In this document: piece after piece, positions 41,313 through 53,717 of the stretch
Numbering within the stretch: position 1 is the first letter of the stretch
How the letters are laid out: each line of letters opens with the position of its first letter
Assembly (NCBI RefSeq): GCF_000244975.1
Contig: NZ_CM001440.1
Span: forward strand, 919,538-983,537
Length of the DNA stretch: 64,000 nt
DNA from: Saccharomonospora cyanea NA-134
Lineage (GTDB): Bacteria > Actinomycetota > Actinomycetes > Mycobacteriales > Pseudonocardiaceae
Direction of reading: 5' to 3'
The notes under the pieces: generated by a model
What the model was told of the DNA's origin: nothing
The model's database searches: none
Seen by the model: the letters and a program-made list of their open reading frames with translations, nothing else
Made by a program: the position numbers and the translations under genes

Positions 41313-42155
41313 TCAGGAACTCCAGGTTCGGCCTGTGAGCCGCTCGTACACGTCGATGTAGCGCTGCCGCGTGGCCTCCACCACCTCGTCCGGGACGGCC
41401 GGTCCCGGCGGGGTCTTGTCCCAACCGGTCGAGGTGGCCCAGTCGCGCACGTACTGCTTGTCGAACGAGTACTGCGGCCGGCCGGGTTCCCACTCGTCGG
41501 CGGGCCAGAAGCGGGAGGAGTCGGAGGTCAGTACCTCGTCGGCGAGCGTGAGTTCGCCGTCGGCGTCCCAGCCGAACTCCAGTTTGGTGTCGGCCACGAT
41601 GATGCCGCGCTCGGCCGCGTACTCGGCGCCTTCGCGATAGATGCGCAGTGTCAGTTCGCGCAGTCGTTCGGCGGTGTCGCGGCCCTCCTGCGCGACGACA
41701 TCGTCGAACGTGATCGGCAGGTCGTGGCCGGAGTCGGCCTTGGTGGTGGGCGTGAAGATCGGTTCGGGCAGCTTGCTGCCCTCCACGAGGCCCGGGGGCA
41801 GCGGAACACCGCACACGGTGGACGAACGCTGGTACTCGGTCAGCCCCGAGCCGGTGAGGTAGCCCCGCGCCACGCACTCGACCTTGATCATGCTGAGTGG
41901 GCGGCAGCGCACGGCCCGGCCCGCGAACTCCGCGGGGACGTCGGTGGCCGAGACGAGGTGGTTGGGCACGAGGTCACCGAACCGCTCGAACCACCACACC
42001 GACAGTTGCGTGAGCAGGGCGCCCTTGTCGGGGATGGGAGTGGGCAGCGGAACGTCGTACACCGACACGCGGTCGGAGGCGACGAGCAACAACTCACCTC
42101 GGTCCTCGTACAGGTCGCGGACCTTGCCCGCATGCAGGTGTTTCACGGCCGCCAT
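41313..42155 (-). CDS. purC: Phosphoribosylaminoimidazole-succinocarboxamide synthase (SAICAR synthase)
   Basis: The 280-residue enzyme joins aspartate to CAIR with ATP in purine synthesis. Family signatures are GKVRDLYE at residue 10, DRVSVYDV (the family SxFD-like site has V here), MIKVECVARGYLTGSG and DTKLEFGWD for the ATP/metal site, then VLTSDSSRFWP. No other pur genes are in the window. The ATG is at 42155, with no strong ribosome-binding site. Confidence 0.95.
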   Translation of the reverse strand: MAAVKHLHAGKVRDLYEDRGELLLVASDRVSVYDVPLPTPIPDKGALLTQLSVWWFERFGDLVPNHLVSATDVPAEFAGRAVRCRPLSMIKVECVARGYLTGSGLTEYQRSSTVCGVPLPPGLVEGSKLPEPIFTPTTKADSGHDLPITFDDVVAQEGRDTAERLRELTLRIYREGAEYAAERGIIVADTKLEFGWDADGELTLADEVLTSDSSRFWPADEWEPGRPQYSFDKQYVRDWATSTGWDKTPPGPAVPDEVVEATRQRYIDVYERLTGRTWSS

Positions 42156-42241
42156 CGTAGTTGGCCCCCGGAACGGGGCCGCCAGGGCCGCACTCTGGGA
42201 CTGTGCCGCAGATCACTTTACGCCATTGTGGACTGACGCGG

Positions 42242-42265
42242 AGTGGCGCGGCACGACGCGCCACT
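42242..42265. other. Perfect 9-bp inverted repeat in the purC / methyltransferase gap
   Basis: AGTGGCGCG and its exact complement surround a six-base loop in the 294-bp gap between purC and the divergent methyltransferase gene. The gap otherwise contains no gene. The hairpin could be an operator or an attenuator; it has no T-run. Just upstream, GTGGACTGA repeats the same half-site loosely. Confidence 0.5.
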
Positions 42266-42449
42266 GTGGAATCACAGCCGCGTTTTTCCGCCTGTTTCAG
42301 GGAAAGTGCGCGTTTTCCGTGATCGTGACACAGCGCGTTCGTCCGGATACGTGAAGAGTTTCCGGCCAGTAGGATTTCCGATGTCGGGTCGGAGGACCGA
42401 AACCTCGGCGTGCGTGGCGCCGATGGATCTTGAGGAGGCGTGCTCGGAA

Positions 42450-43268
42450 GTGGCAATGCCCCAGGGAGCACTGAACCCGGACGGGGCGACCTTCGCGGTC
42501 GTGCCCAACATCGCCCGCATCAGGAACTTCTGGCTGAACGGTGACCGCCACGAGGCCGGCGACCGCGAGATGGCGCGGCGTATCGAACTGTGCTGTCCGC
42601 ACATCCCCTACCTCGTCCGTGCGCAGCGTTCGCTCGTCCAGCGCCAGGTGCGTTACCTCGCGGAGCAGGGCGTGACCCAGTTCCTCGACCTCGGTTCGGG
42701 TCTGCCCGATCAGGGCTACGTGCACCACGTGGCGCAGGAAGTGGACCCCGCGTGCCGGGTGGTGTACGTGGACGCCGACGACTCGATCGCGGCCGACAGC
42801 GCGGAACTTCTCGAGGGCTCGGCGAACACGCGGTTCGTGGTGGCGGACTGCCGCGACGTCGCCGGTGTGCTGGACCACCGCGACGTGCGCGCGGTGCTCG
42901 ACCCGGCCACGCCGTTCGCGGTGCTGATGACCGAACTGCTGCTGCACGTGCCCGACTCCGAGGACCCGGAGGGACTCGTGTCCTCGTGGGTGGCGGCCAT
43001 GCCGCCGGGCAGTTACCTGGCCGTTTCCCACTTCGGGGAGGACGACCAGGTGCTCAAGGGTTTCCGGATCTTCGAAAGCCTGAGGTTCGGACGGTTCCCC
43101 GAGGTGAGCCTGCGTTCCCAGGAGCGGGTCGCGGAGTTCTTCACCGGCCTCGACATCGTCGAGCCGGGTGTGGTGCCCGCACCGTTGTGGCGTCCCGGCC
43201 CGGACGAGGAGACGGTGCGTAACCCGAACGAGGTGCGCATGTACGCGGGTGTCGGAAGGAAGAACTGA
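42450..43268 (+). CDS. DUF574-type S-adenosylmethionine-dependent methyltransferase
   Basis: The protein of about 272 residues matches the actinobacterial DUF574 methyltransferases: NIARIRNFWLNGDRHEAGDREMA at the start, FLDLGSGLPDQGYVHHVAQ for the SAM site, VVYVDADDSIAADSAELL and a C-terminal PVPLWRPG-like ending. GAGGAGG lies eleven bases before a GTG at 42450, which I chose as start; in-frame ATGs at 42381, 42423 and 42456 are alternatives. Members of this large family mostly have no known substrate. It converges with the UbiA gene of the diterpenoid locus. Confidence 0.84.
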   Translation: MAMPQGALNPDGATFAVVPNIARIRNFWLNGDRHEAGDREMARRIELCCPHIPYLVRAQRSLVQRQVRYLAEQGVTQFLDLGSGLPDQGYVHHVAQEVDPACRVVYVDADDSIAADSAELLEGSANTRFVVADCRDVAGVLDHRDVRAVLDPATPFAVLMTELLLHVPDSEDPEGLVSSWVAAMPPGSYLAVSHFGEDDQVLKGFRIFESLRFGRFPEVSLRSQERVAEFFTGLDIVEPGVVPAPLWRPGPDEETVRNPNEVRMYAGVGRKN

Positions 43269-43280
43269 CCTTCGGCGAGG

Positions 43281-44186
43281 TCACGCCGACAGCGCCACGC
43301 CGACGATCGCCAGGTCGGCCGCCAGCACCACCGGCATGACGGTCCTGCGCAGCCTCGTGGAACTCACCGGGGCCCCCGCCGAGACGCGGCGGCTCAGCAC
43401 GACGGCCGATCCGGTGAACACCGCGTGTCCCGCCGCGCCCACGGCCACCGCGACCACTCCACCGGACCACCACAGTCCCCACCCGAGCACCGCGAGACCG
43501 GCCGACAGCAGCAGGCAGGCCACGTGGAGCGCACCGGCGGCACCGCGCCGCACACTCGTCGTTCGCTGGCCCGCCGCGGCATCGGCGTCGCGGTCGGGGA
43601 CCGACCACCACACCACCCGTCCCGCGGCCAGCGCGGTCAGCCCGGTGAACACGAGAGCGGTCGACGCGGGCACGTCGGGACGCAGTGCGGCGTGCGTGAG
43701 CAGGCACGGCAGTGCGACGGCCCCGCAGGCGAACACCACGGCGCCCGCGAGCCCGCGTGACTTCAGGCGCGCAGGCTCGACGTTGTAGAGGACGTGGGCC
43801 GCGAGCGTGCCCACCGCGCCCAGCAGCACGATGAAGTGTCCGATATGGAGGGACACCGCGAGGGCGAGCAGCAGTCCCGCCACGGCTTCACCCGCGGCGA
43901 GCCGTAGCGCGCCCCGTCTGCCGAGCCGGTGTGCGGCAGAGGAGAGCCGGGAACGCTCGGCATGGCGGGAGTCGCTGTCGAGATCGGCGGCGGTGTTGAG
44001 CACCAGCCCCGCCTCCATGAGCAGTACGGCGGCGGTGACGGCGGCCAGCGCGGGCCAGGTCAGCACGTCCGCGGGCGCCGCCGCGGCGAAGCACACGCCC
44101 CACAGCGCCTGGCACAACGTGTTGAGCCAGAACGGGAACTCCAGCCGGTGCACGGCCGCGAGCTCCCGCACCGTCAGTCGCGGCAT
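43281..44186 (-). CDS. UbiA-superfamily prenyltransferase or terpene cyclase
   Basis: The 301-residue membrane protein has about eight helices and both aspartate-rich motifs of the UbiA family: NTAADLDSD (Asn64, Asp68, Asp72) and VPDRDADAA (Asp198-Asp202). The YNVEPARLKSRG segment lies between them. The magnesium-binding motifs would hold a prenyl diphosphate. The gene overlaps the P450 gene by 13 bp and is the third gene of an operon with a class II diterpene cyclase. Two roles are possible: transfer of a prenyl group to an acceptor, or ionisation of the diphosphate product to a hydrocarbon, as known for UbiA-type terpene synthases of the platensimycin (PtmT1) kind. The start is the Met at 44186. 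Confidence 0.85.
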   Translation of the reverse strand: MPRLTVRELAAVHRLEFPFWLNTLCQALWGVCFAAAAPADVLTWPALAAVTAAVLLMEAGLVLNTAADLDSDSRHAERSRLSSAAHRLGRRGALRLAAGEAVAGLLLALAVSLHIGHFIVLLGAVGTLAAHVLYNVEPARLKSRGLAGAVVFACGAVALPCLLTHAALRPDVPASTALVFTGLTALAAGRVVWWSVPDRDADAAAGQRTTSVRRGAAGALHVACLLLSAGLAVLGWGLWWSGGVVAVAVGAAGHAVFTGSAVVLSRRVSAGAPVSSTRLRRTVMPVVLAADLAIVGVALSA

Positions 44187-45433
44187 GCCGTGACCCGCAT
44201 GCGAAGCCGGGACGACGGTGCCATCGCGTGGCCCCGCAGTTGCAACCTCCCCGCCGACGGGTTCACGAGACGCCACTCCCGTCGCCGCAACACCGTCGCG
44301 GTGATCAGACGCAGCTCCAGCATGGCGAGCTGGCTGCCGAGGCACCGCCTGCTGCCGCCGCCGAACGGCAGGTAGTGCGCCGGCGAGAACTTGTGGTCGA
44401 GGAACCTGGTGGGGTCGAACCTGAGCGGCCGGGCGAACGTGTCGTCCTGCCGGTGGGCGAGGTAGATGCTCGTCGTCAGGGTCGTTCCGGCGGGCAGCGT
44501 CCGGCCGAGAAGCCGGGCGGGACCGCGGAGGCGCCGGTTCTCGGCGACCGTCACCGGGGGCGCCAGTCGGAGTGCCTCGGAGATCACGGCGGTGAGCAGG
44601 GGCACCGCCGAGGCCGCGGGCGCGTCGTCGGTGGTCGCGTCGAGCTCGGCGAGGACGTCACGGCGCAACGACTCGTCGCGAGCCAGCCAGTACAGGGTCC
44701 ACGCCGCGGCCGACGCCGTGGTCTCGTGCCCGGCGAACAACAACGACACGAGCTGATCTCGGAGGTCGTCCGAATCGCCGCCGCCGAGTCCGGCCAGCGG
44801 GCCCTCGGCGTCCAGCAACAGCGAGCCCAGCGTCGGGGGTTCGTGCCCTCGCCCCGAACGCGCCCACTCCACGAGCCGGGCATCCAGTTCCGGTCCGGAC
44901 CGGGGCAGTCCGCCTCGCAGGAAGCGATGCGCCAGGGTGCGGGGCCGTGAGCCGAGTGCGTCGTCGATCCAGGTGGTGAAGTCGTCGAGGACCTCGCCGG
45001 TGCGGTCGTCCACGTCGCCGAGTACGAGCCGGGCGATGACCCGCAGGGCGACGTGCCTGGTCCAGTCGGCCAGCGCCACGGTCTGTCCCACGCGCAGCGC
45101 GTCCACCGCCTCGTGCACGGTGTCGGCTACCAGGGGCGTGTAGGCCGCCAGGCGACGGCCGCGCAACGGTGGGCCGAGCAACTTCCGGTAGGCGGCGTGC
45201 CGGGGTCCGTCGACCCACAGCAGTGAGTGGTCGCCGAACAGCGGTTTGAGGCTGCGGCTGCCCGGGTGATCGAGTTCGGGGTCCGAGCCGAACAGCCAGC
45301 CGATCGTCTCGGGCTCCCAGACGAGCAGCTTCGGCGGGTCGTCCGCCAGCCGGACGTGCCGCGCCGGGTCGGTGCGGTGGGCGTCCAGGAACGGCAGTGT
45401 CCGTAGCGCCATCCGCAACTCGGTGCGGTTCAT
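44174..45433 (-). CDS. Cytochrome P450 of the diterpenoid locus
   Basis: The 419-residue protein has the I-helix oxygen motif AGHETT (residues 234-239), the ExxR pair EALR (286-289), and the heme loop FGGGSRRCLGSQLA with the heme cysteine at Cys364. Its length fits bacterial class I P450s. The ATG overlaps the stop of the terpene cyclase gene (ATGA), so it probably hydroxylates or otherwise oxidises the diterpene scaffold. No ferredoxin or reductase gene is nearby. The substrate is inferred from context. Confidence 0.92.
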   Translation of the reverse strand: MNRTELRMALRTLPFLDAHRTDPARHVRLADDPPKLLVWEPETIGWLFGSDPELDHPGSRSLKPLFGDHSLLWVDGPRHAAYRKLLGPPLRGRRLAAYTPLVADTVHEAVDALRVGQTVALADWTRHVALRVIARLVLGDVDDRTGEVLDDFTTWIDDALGSRPRTLAHRFLRGGLPRSGPELDARLVEWARSGRGHEPPTLGSLLLDAEGPLAGLGGGDSDDLRDQLVSLLFAGHETTASAAAWTLYWLARDESLRRDVLAELDATTDDAPAASAVPLLTAVISEALRLAPPVTVAENRRLRGPARLLGRTLPAGTTLTTSIYLAHRQDDTFARPLRFDPTRFLDHKFSPAHYLPFGGGSRRCLGSQLAMLELRLITATVLRRREWRLVNPSAGRLQLRGHAMAPSSRLRMRVTACRD

Positions 45434-47040
45434 GCCGATCCCGTCGGTACCGGCAGGTCGGAGTCGGCCAGCAGCGGTGCGGTGCGCGGATCGGTGTGCG
45501 CCGAGTGGAGGCTCGCCAGCATCTCCGTGCGGATGATGCGGGTGGGCGTGTAGACGTCCTTGTCGTGCCACAGTGGCGGGTGCTCCCGCTCGTCCGACCA
45601 GTGATCGCGCAGGTAGCGCGCCCCGCGTGCGGCGGCTCGTGCGACGGGTTCGCTGTCCGGCTCACCGGCCGTGAGAAGCGCCCGCACCGCGTACGCGGTC
45701 TCCTCGCGGGTGCCGAACCACCGGCCCCAGGTGCCGCCCTCGCGTTCGGAGGTGAGAACCCAGTCGACGGCGCGATCCAGGGCTTCCCGCGCTGCCGCAC
45801 CGCCGTGGCGGGCGAGCGCGGCCACGCAGCAGACGGTGGCGTAGTAGGGGGAGGCGTGCCACTTGTCCGTCCAGTACCCGTCGGGATGCTGGTTCTCGAC
45901 GAGCCACCGCACCACGGTGGCGAGGTCGTCGGTGCACCACCGCCTTTGTGCGTCGCTGAGGGGAGAGGTGTCCGGCGGCAGGGCGAGCAGCGTGCCCAGC
46001 GCCTGCACGACGTGGGCGTTGGCGCTGGTGGAGGGGGTGCGTTCCTCCGGGAAGCAGAAGAAGTGGTCGCCTCGGTGGAACTGTCGCAGGCAGTCCGGTG
46101 AGCGGGGGCTGCCGAGCAGGGCCAGGGCGTGCAACCCGACCGCCGTGTCGTCGACGTCGACGGGCAGACCGGGGCCTCCGGCCGCGCCGTCGTCGCCGAA
46201 CGCGTCGTGCAGGCTCTGGACGAGCTCCCGCATCACCGGCTGCGGAGCCGTGAGCGGCACCCCGGCTTCGAGCAGCGTGCACAGCACCCACGATCGCTCG
46301 AACAGCGTCAGCGGCGCGGCGACGGGCACCCCGCCGTTCTCGTGCTGCACCGACAGCAGGTACGCCACACCGGGGTCTCGTCCTTCCCGCAGCACGTCGT
46401 CACCCAGCCACGCCGCCGTGGCCGCGGGGGAACATCCCACGAGGCGGCCGTCGACGGGTCGCACGGAGGCGGCGCCGCGAGCGGCCGGTCCGAACAGCTC
46501 CAGCGAGTGCCACAGCTTCTCGGGCAGCTCGTGCCCCTGTGCCAGCGCACCGCGTACGGCGTCGAGCAGGTCGGGCCGCGTGCCCGCGGGTTCGGGCAAC
46601 GGCGCACGCCCGAGGCGGGCGAGGTGCGCGTTGATCTCGGAGAGCAACGCGGGCACGACGAGTTCCACGGCGACGGTGTCCGGCAACGAGTCGGCCTGCG
46701 CCAGCCGCTGGGACAGGGCCTCCACACCGCGGTCGGCCGCCTGCGCGACCGCAGGGCCGGCGCCCGGCCGTCGTCGTTCGACGAGCAGTGCCTCGGTGGC
46801 GCTCAGGGTGGTGACGACGTCGTACTCACCCGGACCGCCCCAGCGGCCGTCGCCCCGCTGCGTGCGCAACAGGAACTCCACCCGTTGCCGGTGGTGCGGC
46901 AGCGACGGCGCCAGGGTGACGAGTCGCCCGGTCTCGTAGACGCACGGTTCGTACTGCCCGTTCACGTCGGCGGCCATGTCGGTGAGCAGGGTTCGTACTG
47001 TCTCGGCCGTACGGTCCGACCAGGACACACGGGGTGTCAT
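45430..47040 (-). CDS. Class II diterpene cyclase (DxDD type, copalyl-diphosphate-synthase-like)
   Basis: The 536-residue protein has the prenyltransferase/squalene-cyclase alpha-alpha barrel fold (QRGDGRWGG near residue 61 and NQHPDGYWTDKW in the C-terminal half are QW-like repeats) and the acid catalytic motif DVDD at residues 295-298, inside PVDVDDTAVGL. DxDD marks class II diterpene cyclases, which protonate geranylgeranyl diphosphate to labdane-type diphosphates such as copalyl diphosphate; M. tuberculosis Rv3377c is of the same type and size. There is no DDxxD class I motif that I can see. The ATG has AGGAG at seven bases. It starts an operon with the P450 and UbiA genes. Confidence 0.9.
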   Translation of the reverse strand: MTPRVSWSDRTAETVRTLLTDMAADVNGQYEPCVYETGRLVTLAPSLPHHRQRVEFLLRTQRGDGRWGGPGEYDVVTTLSATEALLVERRRPGAGPAVAQAADRGVEALSQRLAQADSLPDTVAVELVVPALLSEINAHLARLGRAPLPEPAGTRPDLLDAVRGALAQGHELPEKLWHSLELFGPAARGAASVRPVDGRLVGCSPAATAAWLGDDVLREGRDPGVAYLLSVQHENGGVPVAAPLTLFERSWVLCTLLEAGVPLTAPQPVMRELVQSLHDAFGDDGAAGGPGLPVDVDDTAVGLHALALLGSPRSPDCLRQFHRGDHFFCFPEERTPSTSANAHVVQALGTLLALPPDTSPLSDAQRRWCTDDLATVVRWLVENQHPDGYWTDKWHASPYYATVCCVAALARHGGAAAREALDRAVDWVLTSEREGGTWGRWFGTREETAYAVRALLTAGEPDSEPVARAAARGARYLRDHWSDEREHPPLWHDKDVYTPTRIIRTEMLASLHSAHTDPRTAPLLADSDLPVPTGSA

Positions 47041-47166
47041 GCGGCACTCCTCGGCAGCCATTTCGGTTCGGTTGTTTCAAGATCGGGTAATCGACCGGGC
47101 ACCGAACGTAGCACCGTTCCCCGGAGCGCGGAACGATCTTGGTCCGAACGGAGCAGCCGACCGCAC

Positions 47167-49257
47167 TCACCGGCCGGAGGTCACGACCCGGAACTCCCCG
47201 CTCGTGCCGGTGAACTCCCGTACCACTCCGGACAGACTCCTGGCGTCCCCGTGGTATCGGACGCGGTAGGTGCCTTCCGGGGCGTCGGCGGGGACCTCCC
47301 AGGACACGGTCACCTCCGAAGCGGACACTCCTCGGCGCTTCCAGCGCAACATGGTCGACCAGTCCCCGTCGTCGGCGACCCGCTGCCATCCGCCTTCGAC
47401 GAGTCGCTGCACCTCCAGGTACGTGCCACCCCGGTGCAGGTCGTTGCCGGGATGCGCGCCCGCGAAGACGGTCGTGACCCGCTCGCCGGGGAGGTACGCC
47501 GACCTCGGTTGAGCGAGCACGTCACCGAACTTCCCGCCCAGCGGAGGTGTGTCGAGCACGACGCCGGGTTGCAGGGTGAGCTGCCGGTCCGACAGATCCG
47601 GCGGCGCGGTGCCCGCAGGCGGTGTCTCACCGTCCCGCATCGCGGTGGCCAGGTCGTGGGCCGTCTGCCGGAAGGCGTCGAGCTCCCAGCGGCCGAACAG
47701 CGTCGAGCCGCCCTCGTAGTGCTGAGCGTCGTACTCCTCGGGTGTGGTGACGTAGTGGACGTAGCCGTTGCTGTATCCCGCGACGAGCACGTCGCGCACG
47801 TCCGCGCCCACCGCCTCGGCCACGGTCTGCCGTAACCGCAACCCCGCCGCGATCGTCACCTCGCCGGGGATGGCCACCAGGTACAGCGAGCCGATGCGAA
47901 CGAGCTGCACCGGCACCGTCTCCGCCACCCACGGGTACAGCTCGTTCATCGCGCCGATCGGCACCGCCACGCCCTTGGGGGCCTGGCACTGCCTCAGCTC
48001 GGGCGAGACCTCGTAGAGGATCGTGTCCGACACCGCGTCGAGCAGCGGGTTGTCGCCCTCGGCGAACAACGGGAACGCCGGGCCGTCCTCGGCACTGCCC
48101 GCCGCCATGGCGGCGCCGACGGCCGGGTCGCAGGTGCGGTGCTCACGGCTGTCGGAGGTGAACTCCGGTCGCACGGTGACGTCGGAGAGGTCGATGTAGA
48201 CCGTGGCGGCGTCGAGCCCACCGCGCAGGCGGGTGCCCGGATCGTCGAGCTGGCCCGCGGCGGCCTCGTACTGCCGCAGTCCGATCTCTCTCGTGCGGTG
48301 CCGGTCCTCCGGGGTGGACGGCGGTGTGAGGTCGAGGTTCGGGGACATGTCACCCGCGTTGGTCTGTGCGAACGCGGCCACGAACCCGGGCGTGGTGTCG
48401 TCGAGGTAGTCCACGCCCTCCACGCGGCGTTCCCAGTGGTAGGCGGCGTAGCCCTTGTTGTCCGAGCTGATGAGCCGGTTGTCGCCCGACATGCTCGTGT
48501 TGTGTGTCGGGAACCAGTTGATCGCCCCCACCGCTTCCCCCCGGCGTTCGATGCGCAGCAGAGTCGTCTGGGGATCGACGGCGTCGGGGAAGAACGCGCG
48601 CTCGGCCTCGGGGTTGCGGGCGAACGCCTCCTCCGACCGGTTGGCGCTCGCGCCGGTGAGGTGGGCGTGGGTGAGCCGTAGCGTCGACGGGGCGAGGTCG
48701 TCGTGTGCCCGGTGCACCGACTCGACGATGCCGTCGGCGATCGCGTCGAAGGTCTTCTCGTGGTAGCCGAGCGTGGTGAGGTTGTAGAGCAGGTGGTGCG
48801 AGTACCCGCCGGGCCCGGAGTGGGTGTGGGTGGCGGTGAGCAGCACGTTCTGCTCGGTGTAGAGGTCGCCGTAGTCGTCGGCGAGTCTGGCGAGCACCTC
48901 CTGGTGCACGCTGGAGAAGATCATCGGTGAGTCGACGACGACCAGCAGCACCCGCTCGTCGGTGGCCGCGTCGACGATGACGAAGGACCGTGCGCGCAGC
49001 CGGTTGTGGAGCCCTTCGGCCTGCTGGTCGAGGCGGCCGTAGCCCATCATGCCGACCTCGGCGATCTCGCCGGTCGCGTCGGCGATTCCCCGCCCGACGA
49101 GGTACTCCCGGCCGGGCGCGGTGACCTCGGCGGTCGCGGTGTCGGTGGGTTCCGGCTGTGCGTGCCCCGGTGCCGTCCCGGCGAGCGTGACCACGGCGAG
49201 CGCCATCGCGGTGCCGAGCGCGGTGAGTCTCGTGTGGCGCTTCCCGGAGGCGGTCAT
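47167..49257 (-). CDS. Secreted neutral/alkaline ceramidase
   Basis: The 696-residue protein has a signal peptide (LTALGTAMALAVVTLAGTAPGHA) and the neutral ceramidase fold: LVGRGIADATGE at the start, MMGYGRLDQQAEG, THTHSGPGGYSHH (zinc histidines and the catalytic-serine region), INWFPTHNTSMSGDN, and NAGDMSPNL. It ends with the C-terminal immunoglobulin-like domain. These enzymes split ceramide into fatty acid and sphingosine outside the cell. Sphingolipids are not made by most actinobacteria, so the substrate is probably external. It overlaps the upstream beta-propeller gene (ATGA) and may need it for activity. Confidence 0.9.
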   Translation of the reverse strand: MTASGKRHTRLTALGTAMALAVVTLAGTAPGHAQPEPTDTATAEVTAPGREYLVGRGIADATGEIAEVGMMGYGRLDQQAEGLHNRLRARSFVIVDAATDERVLLVVVDSPMIFSSVHQEVLARLADDYGDLYTEQNVLLTATHTHSGPGGYSHHLLYNLTTLGYHEKTFDAIADGIVESVHRAHDDLAPSTLRLTHAHLTGASANRSEEAFARNPEAERAFFPDAVDPQTTLLRIERRGEAVGAINWFPTHNTSMSGDNRLISSDNKGYAAYHWERRVEGVDYLDDTTPGFVAAFAQTNAGDMSPNLDLTPPSTPEDRHRTREIGLRQYEAAAGQLDDPGTRLRGGLDAATVYIDLSDVTVRPEFTSDSREHRTCDPAVGAAMAAGSAEDGPAFPLFAEGDNPLLDAVSDTILYEVSPELRQCQAPKGVAVPIGAMNELYPWVAETVPVQLVRIGSLYLVAIPGEVTIAAGLRLRQTVAEAVGADVRDVLVAGYSNGYVHYVTTPEEYDAQHYEGGSTLFGRWELDAFRQTAHDLATAMRDGETPPAGTAPPDLSDRQLTLQPGVVLDTPPLGGKFGDVLAQPRSAYLPGERVTTVFAGAHPGNDLHRGGTYLEVQRLVEGGWQRVADDGDWSTMLRWKRRGVSASEVTVSWEVPADAPEGTYRVRYHGDARSLSGVVREFTGTSGEFRVVTSGR

Positions 49258-50444
49258 CGGTGCAGTACTTCCGTCGGCACGGTGTAGCCGCGGACCCGTT
49301 GCGGGTGGTCGCCGACGGGAATGCGGGCGACCTCGCGGGGGTTGTCGTACGACACCACCGAGATGTCGTCACTGTCGCTGTTGGACAGGAAGCAGTACCG
49401 CCCGTCCGGGGTGGTGGCGGCCCAGTAGGGCTTGTCACCGGTCGGCACGATCGCGTCCACGGTCAGCGCGGGCACCGACAGGATCGCGGCGTAGTCGGAG
49501 ATGGTTCCCGCGTCGCAGATCTTGGTGTGGTCGTCGTTCATGGCGAGCCCGTGGTGCGCCGAGTCGAGCGGGTAGTCGCGTCGCTTCAGCTCCTTCGCCT
49601 CGTCCGAAAGCGGGAGGTGCACGGTGCGCGTGCGGCGTTCCTCTTCGAGGTCGTACTCGACGAAGCCGTTGTGGAACGACAGCTGCGCGTACATCGTGCG
49701 GTTGTCCGGCAGCACCACGAACGGCCGGATGCCCACGCCGAAGTCGATGACCTTCTCGACCTCCAGCGTCTCGGCGTCGATGATCGTGAGTTCCCGGTTG
49801 CCCTTGAGGCCGTCGAGGATCTCGGCGTCGGGTGCGATCACGTTGCCGATCGAGGCGTTGTAGATGGTGCCGCCGTCGGCGGAGAAGCGGTTCTCGTGGG
49901 GGAAGTCGCCGGTGGGGACATCGGCGACGATCTCGCCGGTGGCGGTGTCCACGACGTCGACCACGTCCGCGGTGGTGGCCGACACGAGCAGCCTGCTGCC
50001 GTCGGGGGACAACGCCATGTGATCGGAGCGGTAGCCGTGGACCCGGCGGTGCCAGAGCTGGTCCCCGCTGGCGATGTCGTACGCGGCGACGTCACCGAGG
50101 CTCGGCCGCGACACGTACATGGTGCGGCCGTCGGGCGACACCATGATGTCGTCGACGAGTTGGTCGTGGCCCTCGCCTGCCGTGTTGCGGACCACCGCCA
50201 TGGCGATGCGCTGGTCGATCCGCATCTGCCAGACGCGTTCGTCGAAGTCCCCGACCACGTCGATGCGCTGGTACTTCTCGAACGTGCGCGCGTCGACGAG
50301 GTCGACCGTGCCGTCCCAGTTGTTGCCGACGAACATCACGTCGCTCATCGGCGTGGCGTGTGCCGTCGGGGGGAGTGTGAACACCAGAGCCGCCAGGGTT
50401 ACCGAGGTGGCGGCAGCGCCCAGCCGCCGGAGTCGCTTCCGCAT
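49254..50444 (-). CDS. Secreted YncE-like beta-propeller protein
   Basis: The 396-residue protein has a signal peptide (AAATSVTLAALVFTLPPTAHA) and repeats of the YVTN/YncE seven-bladed propeller (VMFVGNNWDGTVDLVDART, MVSPDGRTMYVSRPS, MALSPDGSRLLVSATT, FSADGGTIYNASIG, TPDGRYCFLSNSDSDDISVVS). Its role is not known; related propellers bind ligands or partner proteins in the envelope. It is transcribed first, with the ceramidase gene overlapping its stop as ATGA. An imperfectly understood inverted repeat lies just upstream. Confidence 0.85.
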   Translation of the reverse strand: MRKRLRRLGAAATSVTLAALVFTLPPTAHATPMSDVMFVGNNWDGTVDLVDARTFEKYQRIDVVGDFDERVWQMRIDQRIAMAVVRNTAGEGHDQLVDDIMVSPDGRTMYVSRPSLGDVAAYDIASGDQLWHRRVHGYRSDHMALSPDGSRLLVSATTADVVDVVDTATGEIVADVPTGDFPHENRFSADGGTIYNASIGNVIAPDAEILDGLKGNRELTIIDAETLEVEKVIDFGVGIRPFVVLPDNRTMYAQLSFHNGFVEYDLEEERRTRTVHLPLSDEAKELKRRDYPLDSAHHGLAMNDDHTKICDAGTISDYAAILSVPALTVDAIVPTGDKPYWAATTPDGRYCFLSNSDSDDISVVSYDNPREVARIPVGDHPQRVRGYTVPTEVLHR

Positions 50445-50533: not shown

Positions 50534-51889
50534 TCACACCCCCCAGTCGGGACGCAGCGGCATCGACGCCGCACCCGACGCCGACGGCTTCACACCCAGC
50601 ACCTGGTGCAACTCGATGCGGCGGCGCTCGAAGGCGAGCCGGGACGCCGCCATGTAGAGCGCCCACACGCGCGCCCGCCGAACCCCGGCCTCGCTCACGG
50701 CCTCGGCCCAGTTCGCGTCGAGGTTCTCGCACCACGCCGCGAGCGTCCTCGCGTAGTGCTCGCGCAGGTTCTCCTCGTGCCGCACCTCGAAGCCGTTGTC
50801 CTGCATGGCCGACACGATGGTGCCCACACCCACCAGCTCACCGTCGGGGAAGACGTAGCGGTCGATGAACGGGCCGGTGCGATGCCGCTCCCGCGTGCTC
50901 GGGCGGGTGATGCAGTGGTTGAGCAGCCGTCCGCCCTCCCGCAGCCGGGCGGCCAGGAACCGGAAGTATCCCGGTAGGTTTCGCGCGCCCACGTGTTCAG
51001 TGAGGCCGATGGAGGACACGGCGTCGAACCCGGTCTCGGGGACGTCGCGGTAGTCGCCGTGCCGCACCTCGGCGCGGTCGGTCAGCCCGCGCCGCCGCAG
51101 CTCCTCCCGCGCCCACTCCGCCTGCTCGCGGGACAGCGTCACGCCCACGGCCCGCACCCCGTAGTGCTCGGCCGCGTGCGCCACCATGCCGCCCCAGCCG
51201 CAGCCGACGTCGAGCAGGCGCATGCCCGGCCGCAGCCCGAGCTTGCGGCACACGAGGTCGAACTTGTGGAACTGCGCCTGTTCGAGACCGGCCTCGGGGG
51301 TGGGGTAGCACGCGCAGGTGTAGGCCATCGACGGCCCCAGGACCAGTTCGTAGAACCGGTTCGACACGTCGTAGTGCCGCGTGATCGCCACGCTGTCGCG
51401 GCGCTTCGAGTGCCGCAGGCCCCCCAGTGCCCTCCTCACCCGGCCCGGTGCCTCCTCCGGCGGCAGCGGCACCCAGCGCAGATAGCGTGGGCCGAGGTCG
51501 CGCAGGAGCGCCCAGGCCTGGGCCGGGCCGAGACCGTCCATCACGCTCGTCAGCGCGCGCAGCACCTCGTACAGGTCTCCCGTGACGCCGAGCTCGCCGG
51601 TCACGTACGCGCGCGCGAGCCCGAGTTCGCCCGGTGCCGAGAGCAGGTAGGCCAGTGCCGTGGGCGAGCGCAATTCGAGGCGCAGAGGCGCGGACGCGTC
51701 ACCCACGGCGCTCCCGTCGTACGCGGTGATGGCCACGGACGAATCGGCGGACAGCAGGTGTGCGAGCGCTGAGCACACCGTCGGGTGCGGTCGCCTCGGC
51801 GTCCGCACGGTCCGCTGTCCGTTACCCGTCGGCGGCGGTGCCGACGGCTCCCACGTGGTGTCGGGCGCCGCGTTACCCATCCGACTCAC
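50534..51889 (-). CDS. tmsB: SAM-dependent fatty-acyl methyltransferase (CFA-synthase family, TmsB-type)
   Basis: The 451-residue protein is a cyclopropane-fatty-acid-synthase-like enzyme, with the SAM motif LDVGCGWGGMVAHAAEHYG near residue 230 and GVTLSREQAEWAREE after it. In Corynebacteriales and Thermobifida, tmsB with tmsA makes 10-methyl branched acids: TmsB adds a methylene at C10 of oleoyl phospholipids. Here it follows tmsA with a 15-bp gap. The GTG start at 51889 and an ATG at 51880 are both served by AGGAGAGGAG. A true cyclopropane synthase is the alternative but the tmsA partner argues against it. Confidence 0.85.
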   Translation of the reverse strand: MSRMGNAAPDTTWEPSAPPPTGNGQRTVRTPRRPHPTVCSALAHLLSADSSVAITAYDGSAVGDASAPLRLELRSPTALAYLLSAPGELGLARAYVTGELGVTGDLYEVLRALTSVMDGLGPAQAWALLRDLGPRYLRWVPLPPEEAPGRVRRALGGLRHSKRRDSVAITRHYDVSNRFYELVLGPSMAYTCACYPTPEAGLEQAQFHKFDLVCRKLGLRPGMRLLDVGCGWGGMVAHAAEHYGVRAVGVTLSREQAEWAREELRRRGLTDRAEVRHGDYRDVPETGFDAVSSIGLTEHVGARNLPGYFRFLAARLREGGRLLNHCITRPSTRERHRTGPFIDRYVFPDGELVGVGTIVSAMQDNGFEVRHEENLREHYARTLAAWCENLDANWAEAVSEAGVRRARVWALYMAASRLAFERRRIELHQVLGVKPSASGAASMPLRPDWGV

Positions 51890-51904
51890 ACTCCTCTCCT
51901 CGCG

Positions 51905-53314
51905 CTACTCGGCTCTGACGCACTTGGCGTAGAGGTCCAGCAGGCGGCCACGGGGGTCGTAGCGGCGCTTGAGCCGCTCGTAGGCCACGCCGCCGTAGAG
52001 GCTCCAGAACGTCCGCTCGTCGTAGAACGCCTCCGAGTACAGCGACTTGCGACCGCCGAGCTCGGTGACCTTCTCCTCGACCGACCGGTTGTGCACGCCA
52101 CGGGGCGCGCCCTTCCGTGTCGGCACCGTGCCCCAGAACCCGAAGTTGACGTACAGCGTGTTCGGGTCGAGTTCGTAGAGCGGCCACTGCCGGTCGGGAT
52201 GCCGCTGGCGCACCGGACAGATCCACACCGGACTGAGCGGGACGTCGCGGTGCAGGAAGTCGAGGAACTCCGCCGCGGCGTCGACCGGCACCTCGACGTC
52301 CTGCACCACGGCCTCGCGCCGCGGCCTGCCCAGCAGCCGGTTCACGCGGTTGGAGAGGTCGTACCGGCGATCGAACGCCACGACCTTCCAGTACACGTCC
52401 GAACGCAGTCGCTGCGGGCCGAGCAGCAGGCGCACCGGACGGTTCTGCACGCCCAACGCGCGTGAGCACCAGAACCAGTCGGTGTCCCACCGCCAGAGGT
52501 AGTCCCGCGTGTGCAGGTAGTCGATGTCGTGCTCGCGGACGGACCGGTAGTAGATGTCCAGCCACGTGTAGTCGCTGAGCCGGGGCGCCTCGTCGGTGAA
52601 CGTGCCCAGGGTCAGGTACAGCTCGTCCGAGCCGAACACCGTGCCGTCGACGAAGTCCGCCGCACCCTCCGCGCAGACCCTGGCCAGCTCGGCGAAGTAG
52701 GTGCTGGGATCGGTGTGTCGCACGTGCCGCAGCCGCACGTAGGGTCGCACCGGCTCCAGCTCGATGCGCAGCCGCAGCGCGTACCCGAGCGTGCCGTACG
52801 AGTTGGGGAAGCCGAAGAACAGTTCGGAGTGCTCGCCATCCGGCCGGGCGATCACCACCTCGCCGTCACCGGTGAGGATCTCCGCCTCCAGCACCGACTC
52901 GTGCGGCATGCCGTTGCGGAACGACGAGGACTCGATGCCGAGCCCCGTCACGGCCCCGCCGACGGTGATGGTCTTGAGTTGCGGCACCACCAGCGGCATC
53001 AGCCCGTGCGGCAGGGTCGCGTCCACCAGTCGCTCGTAGGTGACCATGCCCTCCACGTCGGCCGTGCGGGCCACCGGGTCGACGTCGAGGACGTGTGTCA
53101 GCTCCGAGACGTCCAGCCCGGCCGAGGTCCGGCTCCGGGAGCGGAAGAGGTTCGAGGTCCGCTTGGCCAGCCGCACGGGGAGATCCGGGGGTTGGGCGGC
53201 GAGTCGGGCCCGCAACGCCGCCACGCGTTCGGCGTGGCCGGGTGCGGCAGTGGGCGAGGTGGCCGGGGACGCGCCCGGCTCCGGGTACGACGCCGACCGG
53301 TTGTCCTGCACCAT
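51905..53314 (-). CDS. tmsA: FAD-dependent oxidoreductase (TmsA-type, 10-methylene reductase)
   Basis: The 469-residue protein has a FAD-binding type 4 (VAO-like) domain (TADVEGMVTYERLVD, ITVGGAVTGLGIESSSFRNGMPHESV), then a C-terminal domain with many aromatic residues. It resembles DWF1/Dim-like flavoproteins that reduce double bonds. In the tms pathway it reduces the methylene formed by TmsB to a methyl group with NADPH, giving 10-methyl stearate (tuberculostearate). The start Met (VQDNRSAS) at 53314 is the first in-frame ATG within a plausible distance; longer frames run upstream into the MerR region and are shadows. Confidence 0.85.
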   Translation of the reverse strand: MVQDNRSASYPEPGASPATSPTAAPGHAERVAALRARLAAQPPDLPVRLAKRTSNLFRSRSRTSAGLDVSELTHVLDVDPVARTADVEGMVTYERLVDATLPHGLMPLVVPQLKTITVGGAVTGLGIESSSFRNGMPHESVLEAEILTGDGEVVIARPDGEHSELFFGFPNSYGTLGYALRLRIELEPVRPYVRLRHVRHTDPSTYFAELARVCAEGAADFVDGTVFGSDELYLTLGTFTDEAPRLSDYTWLDIYYRSVREHDIDYLHTRDYLWRWDTDWFWCSRALGVQNRPVRLLLGPQRLRSDVYWKVVAFDRRYDLSNRVNRLLGRPRREAVVQDVEVPVDAAAEFLDFLHRDVPLSPVWICPVRQRHPDRQWPLYELDPNTLYVNFGFWGTVPTRKGAPRGVHNRSVEEKVTELGGRKSLYSEAFYDERTFWSLYGGVAYERLKRRYDPRGRLLDLYAKCVRAE

Positions 53315-53366
53315 GGACTCAAGAATCGCCCCTGGTCGCGGGCACTGCCAGGTGAGCGGACGGCAT

Positions 53367-53717
53367 TCACCCCGTGCTGTCGCCGGTTGGCCCTTCCGGG
53401 TGCTGCTCACCGAGTTCGGCGAGGTGTTGCCGGAGCCGTGCGATCTCTTTCCGCGCCTCCTCCAGCTCGCGTTCCAGTCGCAGGATGCGCTGTGCCGACG
53501 CGAGGTTGTGGCCCTCGTCGAACAACTCCCGCAGCCGGTTCGCGAGGCCGAGCTGGTGGCGGGAGTATCGGCGGTGGCCACCGCTCGACCGCTGCGGCGT
53601 GACGACGCCCGCGTTGTCGAGGCTGCGCAGGAACGGCTGTTCCACTCCCAGCAGCTCGGCGGCCTGGCCTGTGCTGAAGGCGGGGTAGTGCTCGTCGTCG
53701 AGCTTCCGCAGGTTCAT
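53367..53717 (-). CDS. MerR-family transcriptional regulator
   Basis: The 116-residue protein has a MerR winged helix (YPAFSTGQAAELLGVEQPFLRSLDNAG, then RSSGGHRRYSRHQLGLANRLREL) and a C-terminal coiled coil (RILRLERELEEARKEIARLRQHL) for dimerisation, but no effector domain. It lies 53 bp upstream of tmsA on the same strand, so it may control tmsAB or itself; a 15-bp palindrome just upstream is a candidate site. HspR-like small MerR proteins are similar in size. Confidence 0.87.
   Translation of the reverse strand: MNLRKLDDEHYPAFSTGQAAELLGVEQPFLRSLDNAGVVTPQRSSGGHRRYSRHQLGLANRLRELFDEGHNLASAQRILRLERELEEARKEIARLRQHLAELGEQHPEGPTGDSTG

Follow-up and report, generated by a model that had tools for sequence, protein, structure and literature searches.

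The 64-kb window, by which we mean the whole stretch of DNA that was analysed, holds a compact set of three genes on the reverse strand. The first (45430..47040) encodes a class II (DxDD) diterpene cyclase of 536 aa, a predicted copalyl diphosphate synthase, with GAGGAG immediately 5′ of its ATG at 47040. It is followed by the gene for a cytochrome P450 (44174..45433; 419 aa), with intact heme-ligand, I-helix and ExxR motifs, and by that for a UbiA-superfamily membrane enzyme (43281..44186; 301 aa), a proposed class I terpene cyclase. The cyclase and P450 genes overlap by 4 bp, the stop of one and the start of the other forming ATGA at 45430-45433, and the P450 and UbiA genes overlap by 13 bp (44174-44186). 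Both junctions agree with a first-pass annotation made from the sequence alone, and its reading of the three genes as one coupled operon is supported by the overlaps and by a conserved gene order. That annotation saw no other tailoring genes; it missed a PF04672 S-adenosyl methyltransferase gene on the forward strand (42381..43268; 295 aa if translation begins with the ATG at 42381, which is uncertain), which is convergent with the UbiA gene, is conserved with the cassette and has its stop (43268) 12 bp past the UbiA stop.

A terminator-like hairpin at the junction of the UbiA and methyltransferase genes (43266..43283, reverse strand) is likely to be the end of the operon, to judge from a consensus scan, which is weak evidence; four terminator-type sites were found in 42100-49300, and shuffled versions of this interval averaged 1.5. 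A promoter scan of the same interval returned no sites, and no Rfam family matched the window at its gathering score.

The cyclase, P450 and UbiA genes occur in the same order and on the same strand in 54 of the 80 loci fetched, spread over 15 genus codes. With start codons picked by script, the cyclase and P450 genes overlap in 41 of these 54 cassettes and are separated by 0-20 bp in 13, while the overlap of the P450 and UbiA genes is exactly 13 nt in 39. Since order, strand and overlaps have been kept in this way, the arrangement is not a matter of chance. The cyclase is also found in 11 of 12 genomes that share the genus code of the source, and under a second genus code at least 18 genomes carry it. 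This distribution suggests a role beyond strain-specific chemistry; the recurrence of the cyclase across loci and genomes rules out a single-strain oddity. The locus is thus not isolated but one instance of a recurrent cassette with a methyltransferase neighbour, and its kind, a class II cyclase with a UbiA cyclase, had already been described. Culturable named carriers include 11 Lentzea records and Streptomyces jumonjinensis. Lentzea is a member of the Pseudonocardiaceae.

Translation of the cyclase gene places DVDD at residues 295-298 of the 536-residue protein (46147..46158, reverse strand), as first annotated. The protein matches PF13243 in Pfam, and its best solved relative is the ent-copalyl diphosphate synthase PtmT2 (5bp8, 375 bits), followed by Tpn2 (7xkx, 269 bits) and Rv3377c (6vpt, 98 bits). 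It does not cluster with squalene-hopene cyclases, an outcome that the first-pass annotation had named as a refuting test: those enzymes score about 36 bits, and the hopene cyclase model TIGR01507 gives 36 bits, far below its cut-off of 431, so that this identity can be ruled out. D295, D297 and D298 are each present in all 54 UbiA-linked cyclases, as are the D.DDT pattern and D121/E126 of the DxxxxE metal motif. In a quick tree, the UbiA-linked cyclases group together yet do not form a single clade (six label changes).

The available passages of PMC9814783 place the switch between labdane and clerodane formation at the position of PtmT2 D502 and Tpn2 G485. In pairwise alignments, this position corresponds to Asp493 of the cyclase (codon 45562..45564, reverse strand). 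Asp occupies it in all 54 UbiA-linked cyclases, and the 25 other rows, including PtmT2, hold 11 D, 10 G, 3 V and 1 S. As Asp is the residue of labdane formers, copalyl diphosphate is a likelier product than a clerodane; of the two product types first envisaged, the labdane is therefore favored and the clerodane disfavored. Together, the sequence comparisons support a PtmT2-like, labdane-type class II diterpene cyclase.

The P450 matches PF00067 (E 3.5e-50), with FGGGSRRC at 357, AGHET at 234 and EALR at 286. The FxxGxxxC heme loop, the I-helix AGxET and ExxR were each found in 54 of 54 cassette P450s, the last two patterns being loose. The methyltransferase matches PF04672 at 42396-43268 (E 1.2e-66, 225 bits, cut-off 26), and its solved relatives, 2qe6 and 3giw, are both of unknown function. 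It lies tail-to-tail with the UbiA gene in 43 of the 54 cassettes and is not beside it in 11; in S. jumonjinensis, no methyltransferase was found beside UbiA within the 21.5 kb examined. Copies of PF04672 are present in all 18 relatives searched (4 to 21 in each), and the cassette methyltransferases form one clade against 29 paralogs. Of 23 representative loci, 19 have the gene downstream while the flanks differ between genera, which disfavors inherited synteny alone as the reason for its presence.

The first-pass annotation reported no GGPP synthase, and this holds for the window; a search of the genome found three PF00348 prenyl synthases elsewhere, which by sequence are candidates to supply GGPP. 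For the prenyl synthase at the locus labelled L003, the best NCBIfam model is farnesyl/geranyl diphosphate synthase, below cut-off, which softens its reading as a plain GGPP synthase. A CrtI-like frame, judged by reading the sequence, adjoins L003.

The UbiA protein matches PF01040 (E 2.2e-22, 80 bits, cut-off 34.2), in agreement with the family first assigned to it; the class I step is the most likely function for this protein, which the first-pass annotation had left unspecified. N64, D68 and D72 and also D198 and D202 are invariant in 29 of 29 aligned sequences, and the motifs NxxxDxxxD and DxxxD are intact in all 52 cassette UbiAs, which are all distinct and represent the 54 cassettes minus two in which UbiA is interrupted by an assembly gap or a broken frame. 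Across the class, the UbiA profile matches 7 of 394 genomes at E<=1e-12, the six besides the source genome at 3.4e-19 to 2.0e-13; in a quick tree, these six matches and four paralogs from the source genome lie outside the cassette UbiA group. The UbiA search on plasmids gave a single weak match. A scan with PtmT2 as the query gave 13 loci, none from S. platensis.

The source genome has no match at E<=1e-8 to PF19086, the model for bacterial class I synthases; the same search gives matches in 27 of 35 genomes. A search of the source genome with PF03936 says little, as that model matched in no control genome. In 32 of the 35 genomes a cyclase adjoins UbiA, and in none of the 32 is this cyclase flanked within 5 kb by a PF19086 synthase. 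Such a synthase lies within 5 kb of a cyclase without a UbiA neighbor in 5 of 26 genomes (six loci), but the other 21 have none within that distance either, so the absence of a class I neighbor is not special to UbiA clusters. What makes the UbiA protein probably the class I enzyme is the lack of a PF19086 match in the genome, together with a class I synthase that occupies the same slot in a Streptomyces relative. We therefore propose that it is a class I terpene cyclase with copalyl diphosphate as its substrate. To our knowledge, few bacterial UbiA-type terpene cyclases have been proven so far, and no settled criterion tells them apart from UbiA prenyltransferases.

From the gene order, intact motifs, cyclase kinship and conservation of the cassette, all seen at the sequence level, we conclude that the locus probably encodes a compact labdane-related diterpenoid pathway with UbiA as its class I cyclase. 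One of the prenyl synthases encoded outside the window would supply GGPP, which the DxDD cyclase would protonate and bicyclise to copalyl diphosphate, for which we infer the ent configuration from kinship with PtmT2. The UbiA membrane protein would ionise the allylic diphosphate by its two Asp motifs and close more rings, giving a hydrocarbon or alcohol with three or four rings; this step is modelled on PtmT1, which forms ent-atiserene. The P450 would oxidise the cyclised skeleton. The probable role of the PF04672 methyltransferase is either to methylate the oxidised compound or to act in its use.

It is conceivable, though we think it unlikely, that UbiA is instead a true prenyltransferase that couples the bicyclic diphosphate with an acceptor, such as a lipid phosphate, a quinone precursor or an aromatic acid, to give a meroterpenoid or labdane-headed lipid that is then modified by the P450 and methyltransferase. 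The protein retains every prenyltransferase Asp motif. The UbiA sequence alone has no match in the PDB; its profile does match solved structures, but these are confined to digeranylgeranylglyceryl phosphate synthase (E 7.5e-6) and chlorophyll synthase (2e-5), acceptor-using prenyltransferases that combine a geranylgeranyl or phytyl donor with an acceptor. Sets of P450, UbiA and methyltransferase genes without an adjoining cyclase point the same way (L205 and L206, although a cyclase is encoded elsewhere in both genomes). However, the 40 largest flank clusters from 23 representative loci contain no recurring acceptor-making gene, albeit in flanks of only a few kb and with an acceptor from core metabolism possible; clusters with at least three locus sides were either the methyltransferase or confined to two synteny groups. 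The class I synthase in the UbiA slot of the Streptomyces relative also speaks for a cyclase, as does the known precedent for ent-CPP in the available part of PMC10301674.

We regard it as very unlikely that the cyclase, like Tpn2 or Rv3377c, makes a clerodane- or halimane-type diphosphate rather than a labdane: bacterial class II cyclases of this type exist, according to the passages available from PMC9814783, but the invariant Asp493 in place of Tpn2 Gly485 and the higher score to PtmT2 argue against it. That the cluster is a decayed or non-functional leftover is hardly credible, for although a relative (L066) has a frame break in UbiA, three loci (L079, L108 and L113) have no UbiA beside the cyclase, two of them no P450 there either, and one of the 54 cyclases is missing His343, no motif pattern is broken in the 54 cyclases, 54 P450s and 52 UbiAs inspected, and the cyclase persists in nearly every genome of the genus code. 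An apparent UbiA frameshift in L067 was ruled out, as it reflects a run of N inside the gene.

With UbiA as the class I cyclase, the product of the cassette is probably a ring-shaped C20 terpenoid, made by a set of genes that recurs across many related genera, usually with the methyltransferase gene adjoining. The cassette offers a minimal three-gene system for separating UbiA cyclases from UbiA prenyltransferases, with 52 sequences and culturable carriers at hand, and the methyltransferase link provides a first handle on PF04672. A broader proposal, which we put forward tentatively, is that the four proteins form a dedicated pathway to a diterpenoid, or a lipid with a labdane head, that is conserved and near-core in the Pseudonocardiaceae and serves as a house signal or as part of the membrane, not as a strain-specific antibiotic; UbiA would then found a bacterial clade of UbiA cyclases or CPP transferases. 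If this were true, the PF04672 family would be assigned its first substrate, as far as we know.

A similar gene order is seen on a plasmid of Streptomyces sp. NBC_01732, where polyprenyl synthetase, cyclase, P450 and PF19086 synthase genes follow one another with 4-bp overlaps among the last three. Its cyclase is 40% identical to ours, but a PF19086 class I synthase stands where the cassette has UbiA, a polyprenyl synthetase adjoins, and the P450s are just 30% identical, so the slots are analogous and not demonstrably homologous. With the tuberculosinyl system (Rv3377c/Rv3378c), the common feature is a class II diterpene cyclase, although ours scores only 98 bits to 6vpt.

The platencin/platensimycin pathway of Streptomyces platensis shares a DxDD cyclase, PtmT2 being the closest to ours, and a UbiA-family partner, PtmT1, likened here by its published description. 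The role of PtmT1 in that pathway is given in the passages available from PMC10847714, and the conversion of ent-CPP to ent-atiserene by a UbiA-type synthase in those from PMC10301674. The cassette differs in its three overlapping genes with one P450, has no adjoining class I PtmT3-like synthase or GGPP synthase, and shows no trace of the shared tailoring enzymes, put at a minimum of 14 in the PMC10847714 passages. We recognised no report of the cassette itself in the open-licence literature searched. A 2022 survey (PMC9814783) found, in the passages available, a likely UbiA cyclase in 14% of 342 actinobacterial ent-CPPS clusters, the same pairing as in the cassette; those passages do not give the gene order and spread of the cassette, and the words ‘methyltransferase’, ‘Amycolatopsis’ and ‘Saccharopolyspora’ are absent from the main text as available. 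The cassette may well be present in the neighbourhood network of the survey's supplement, and the pairing of a class II cyclase with a UbiA cyclase is already published, both for platencin and in that survey.

The three-gene layout proposed in the first-pass annotation was borne out by translation on the minus strand: the cyclase lies at 45430-47040, the P450 at 44174-45433 and the UbiA-family protein at 43281-44186, a single ATGA forms both the cyclase stop and the P450 start, the P450 and UbiA genes overlap by 13 bp, and the DVDD motif occupies cyclase residues 295-298. The locus is intact in sequence, and the window falls at C1:919538-983537 of a genome that forms a single contig of 5,408,301 bases. 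The cyclase is preceded, on its own strand, by genes for a neutral ceramidase at 47167-49257 (PF04734) and for a beta-propeller protein at 49254-50444. Of the 80 loci fetched below, those with these neighbours belong to the window's own genus or to a few genus codes related to it. At 50534-53581 there is a tandem cyclopropane-synthase-like methyltransferase and FAD-binding oxidase, a pair that we take to resemble TmsB/TmsA of 10-methylstearate synthesis.

Across 390 Pseudonocardiaceae genomes, the cyclase was matched in 96 (E<=1e-20) and UbiA in 76 (E<=1e-8). Of the 96 cyclase-matching genomes, 77 supplied the 80 loci that were retrieved; 54 of these loci, spanning 15 genus codes, carry cyclase, P450 and UbiA in that order on one strand. 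The cyclase and P450 genes overlap in 41 of these 54 and are spaced by 0-20 bp in 13; the P450 and UbiA genes share exactly 13 nt in 39, overlap by another length in nine and are separated in six. Start codons were picked by script close to where they were expected, and individual overlaps or spacings could therefore be inaccurate. Of the 12 genomes under the window's genus code, 11 contain the cyclase, and the one that gave no match is 83% complete; the cyclase is also present in at least 18 genomes of genus code g12 (an unbroken run of genome handles, G166 to G183). In genome G341 the UbiA frame is broken in two (L066 8483-9375), naturally or through assembly, and the adjoining cyclase and P450 are otherwise open. 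When named genomes were scanned with PtmT2, an ent-copalyl diphosphate synthase, 13 loci were returned, including one weak Bacteroidetes match. Using profiles of the cassette proteins, we found cyclase, P450, UbiA and the methyltransferase described below in all 11 Lentzea loci, and the three-gene core, with UbiA at 351 bits, in Streptomyces jumonjinensis NRRL 5741. Since Lentzea belongs to the window's own family, Pseudonocardiaceae, it is the Streptomyces locus that takes the core beyond the family. The methyltransferase was not found in the 21.5 kb examined there; a second P450 lies upstream of that cassette (L144 6813-13796).

The assignment as a class II diterpene cyclase held against squalene-hopene cyclases. 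Pfam matches a squalene-hopene C-terminal domain, and among solved structures the whole protein scores highest with PtmT2 (5bp8, 375 bits) and Tpn2 (7xkx, 269 bits), versus about 36 bits for squalene-hopene cyclases. A hopene cyclase was rejected, as the TIGR01507 score of 36 bits is below that model's cut-off of 431. According to the consulted sections of PMC9814783, Gly485 of Tpn2 corresponds to Asp502 of PtmT2 at a position that sets clerodane versus labdane products; alignments with the solved structures place Asp493 of the window's cyclase there. Our comparison comprised 79 rows: PtmT2 and the cyclases of 78 fetched loci, two of the 80 being left out for broken or fused frames, with over-long frames trimmed to 560 residues. 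The switch residue is Asp in all 54 rows adjoining UbiA; the 25 others have 11 Asp (including PtmT2), 10 Gly, three Val and one Ser. His178, Asp121, Glu126, Lys393 and Tyr497 are likewise invariant in the 54 UbiA-linked cyclases, and His343 is kept in 53. Asp493 and its conservation make a labdane-type (copalyl) diphosphate our best guess for the product, and kinship would place it in the ent series. UbiA-linked cyclases group on a quick tree (six label changes versus 21.5 in shuffles), yet do not form a single clade.

The first-pass annotation had seen no GGPP synthase nearby and proposed searching the rest of the genome. Outside the window there are three PF00348 proteins, which are candidate GGPP sources. 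L001 is similar to a nonaprenyl-type synthase of mycobacteria, L002 to IdsB and to a cargo synthase of family 2 encapsulins, and L003, which adjoins a CrtI-like frame, to a farnesyl/geranyl synthase; all three score below the cut-offs of the models concerned. With the model for polyprenyl transferases carried as family 2 encapsulin cargo, L002 scored 408.6 bits (cut-off 450).

Beyond the UbiA stop, a PF04672 methyltransferase on the opposite strand ends 12 bp away. This tail-to-tail arrangement recurs in 43 of the 54 cassettes (14 genus codes), with spacings of 0-20 bp in 22, overlaps in 15 and wider gaps of up to 206 bp in six. In a tree of 43 cassette methyltransferases (two loci without adjoining UbiA included, two short-frame neighbours omitted) and 29 paralogs from 18 genomes, a single branch with 100/100 support split the two sets; the paralogs were a non-exhaustive set of best scorers to the family model, from 30 loci, one lacking a usable frame. 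The methyltransferase lies downstream in 19 of 23 representative loci, whereas the other flank clusters with at least three locus sides (among the 40 largest) are confined to two synteny groups. From this recurrence, the single branch and the contrast in flanks, we conclude that the gene travels, or is kept, with the cassette. The glycine-rich motif pattern occurs in 37 of 41 full-length proteins; two of the remaining four have a near variant, and none was seen in the other two. Its solved relatives are 2qe6 and 3giw; PMC2954221 reports an unidentified ligand resembling phenylalanine in 3giw and suggests small-molecule methyltransferases. Methylation of an oxidised diterpenoid is our guess at its putative role.

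Residues N64/D68/D72 and D198/D202 of UbiA are shared by all 29 relatives in the alignment, and their motif pattern was matched in 52 of 52 cassette UbiAs examined. On a quick tree without bootstrap, these proteins and the family's orphans separate from four of the five other UbiA paralogs in the genome and from six weak class-wide matches; the fifth paralog, L162, sits beside them, a placement not trustworthy for a very long, oddly composed row. One orphan (genome G175, L204 169-5079) has an ATP-grasp protein and a siderophore-type synthetase of the IucA/IucC kind in its vicinity.

UbiA probably acts as the class I enzyme of the pathway. The bacterial class I model PF19086 matched nothing in the window's genome at E<=1e-8, the identical search being positive in 27 of 35 genomes; PF03936 was also unmatched, as it was in every control genome. 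By coordinates, PF19086 never lies within 5 kb of a UbiA-adjoining cyclase (0 of 32 genomes, of 35 searched). Among 26 genomes whose cyclase has no adjoining UbiA, it lies within 5 kb of the cyclase in five (G382, at two loci, G365, G188, G238 and G148); three of the 26 (G074, G214 and G245) have a UbiA relative elsewhere. The other 21 also have no PF19086 within 5 kb, some having a P450 or polyprenyl synthetase beside the cyclase, and so the distribution is supporting, not decisive. In the main rival, which seems unlikely to us, core metabolism would supply an acceptor to which UbiA transfers the bicyclic diphosphate. Some observations speak against the class I reading. The solved relatives of UbiA are acceptor-using enzymes: a single-sequence query had no PDB match at E<=1, and the profile's only matches were a digeranylgeranylglyceryl phosphate synthase, at E 7.5e-6, and chlorophyll synthases, at 2e-5. 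Genomes G378 and G074 also carry P450-UbiA-methyltransferase sets without an adjoining cyclase. These sets lie at L205 2765-5775 and L206 3212-6229, and both genomes have a cyclase elsewhere.

For UbiA as the class I enzyme, known gene orders offer a comparison. Streptomyces sp. NBC_01732 has polyprenyl synthetase, cyclase, P450 and PF19086 synthase in that order, the last three overlapping by 4 bp, with a cyclase 40% and a P450 30% identical to those of the window; the order in Micromonospora zamorensis is P450, class I synthase, cyclase. From these layouts, UbiA thus occupies the place held elsewhere by a class I synthase. Among 342 ent-CPPS clusters of actinobacteria, PMC9814783 counts 14% with a UbiA protein that is likely a cyclase. 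In the portions of the literature searched we did not find the tightly packed three-gene arrangement, its nearly constant presence across several genera, its extension to Streptomyces jumonjinensis or its association with the methyltransferase. The pathway is of a kind already described, and the locus here is a compact, widely conserved variant of it.
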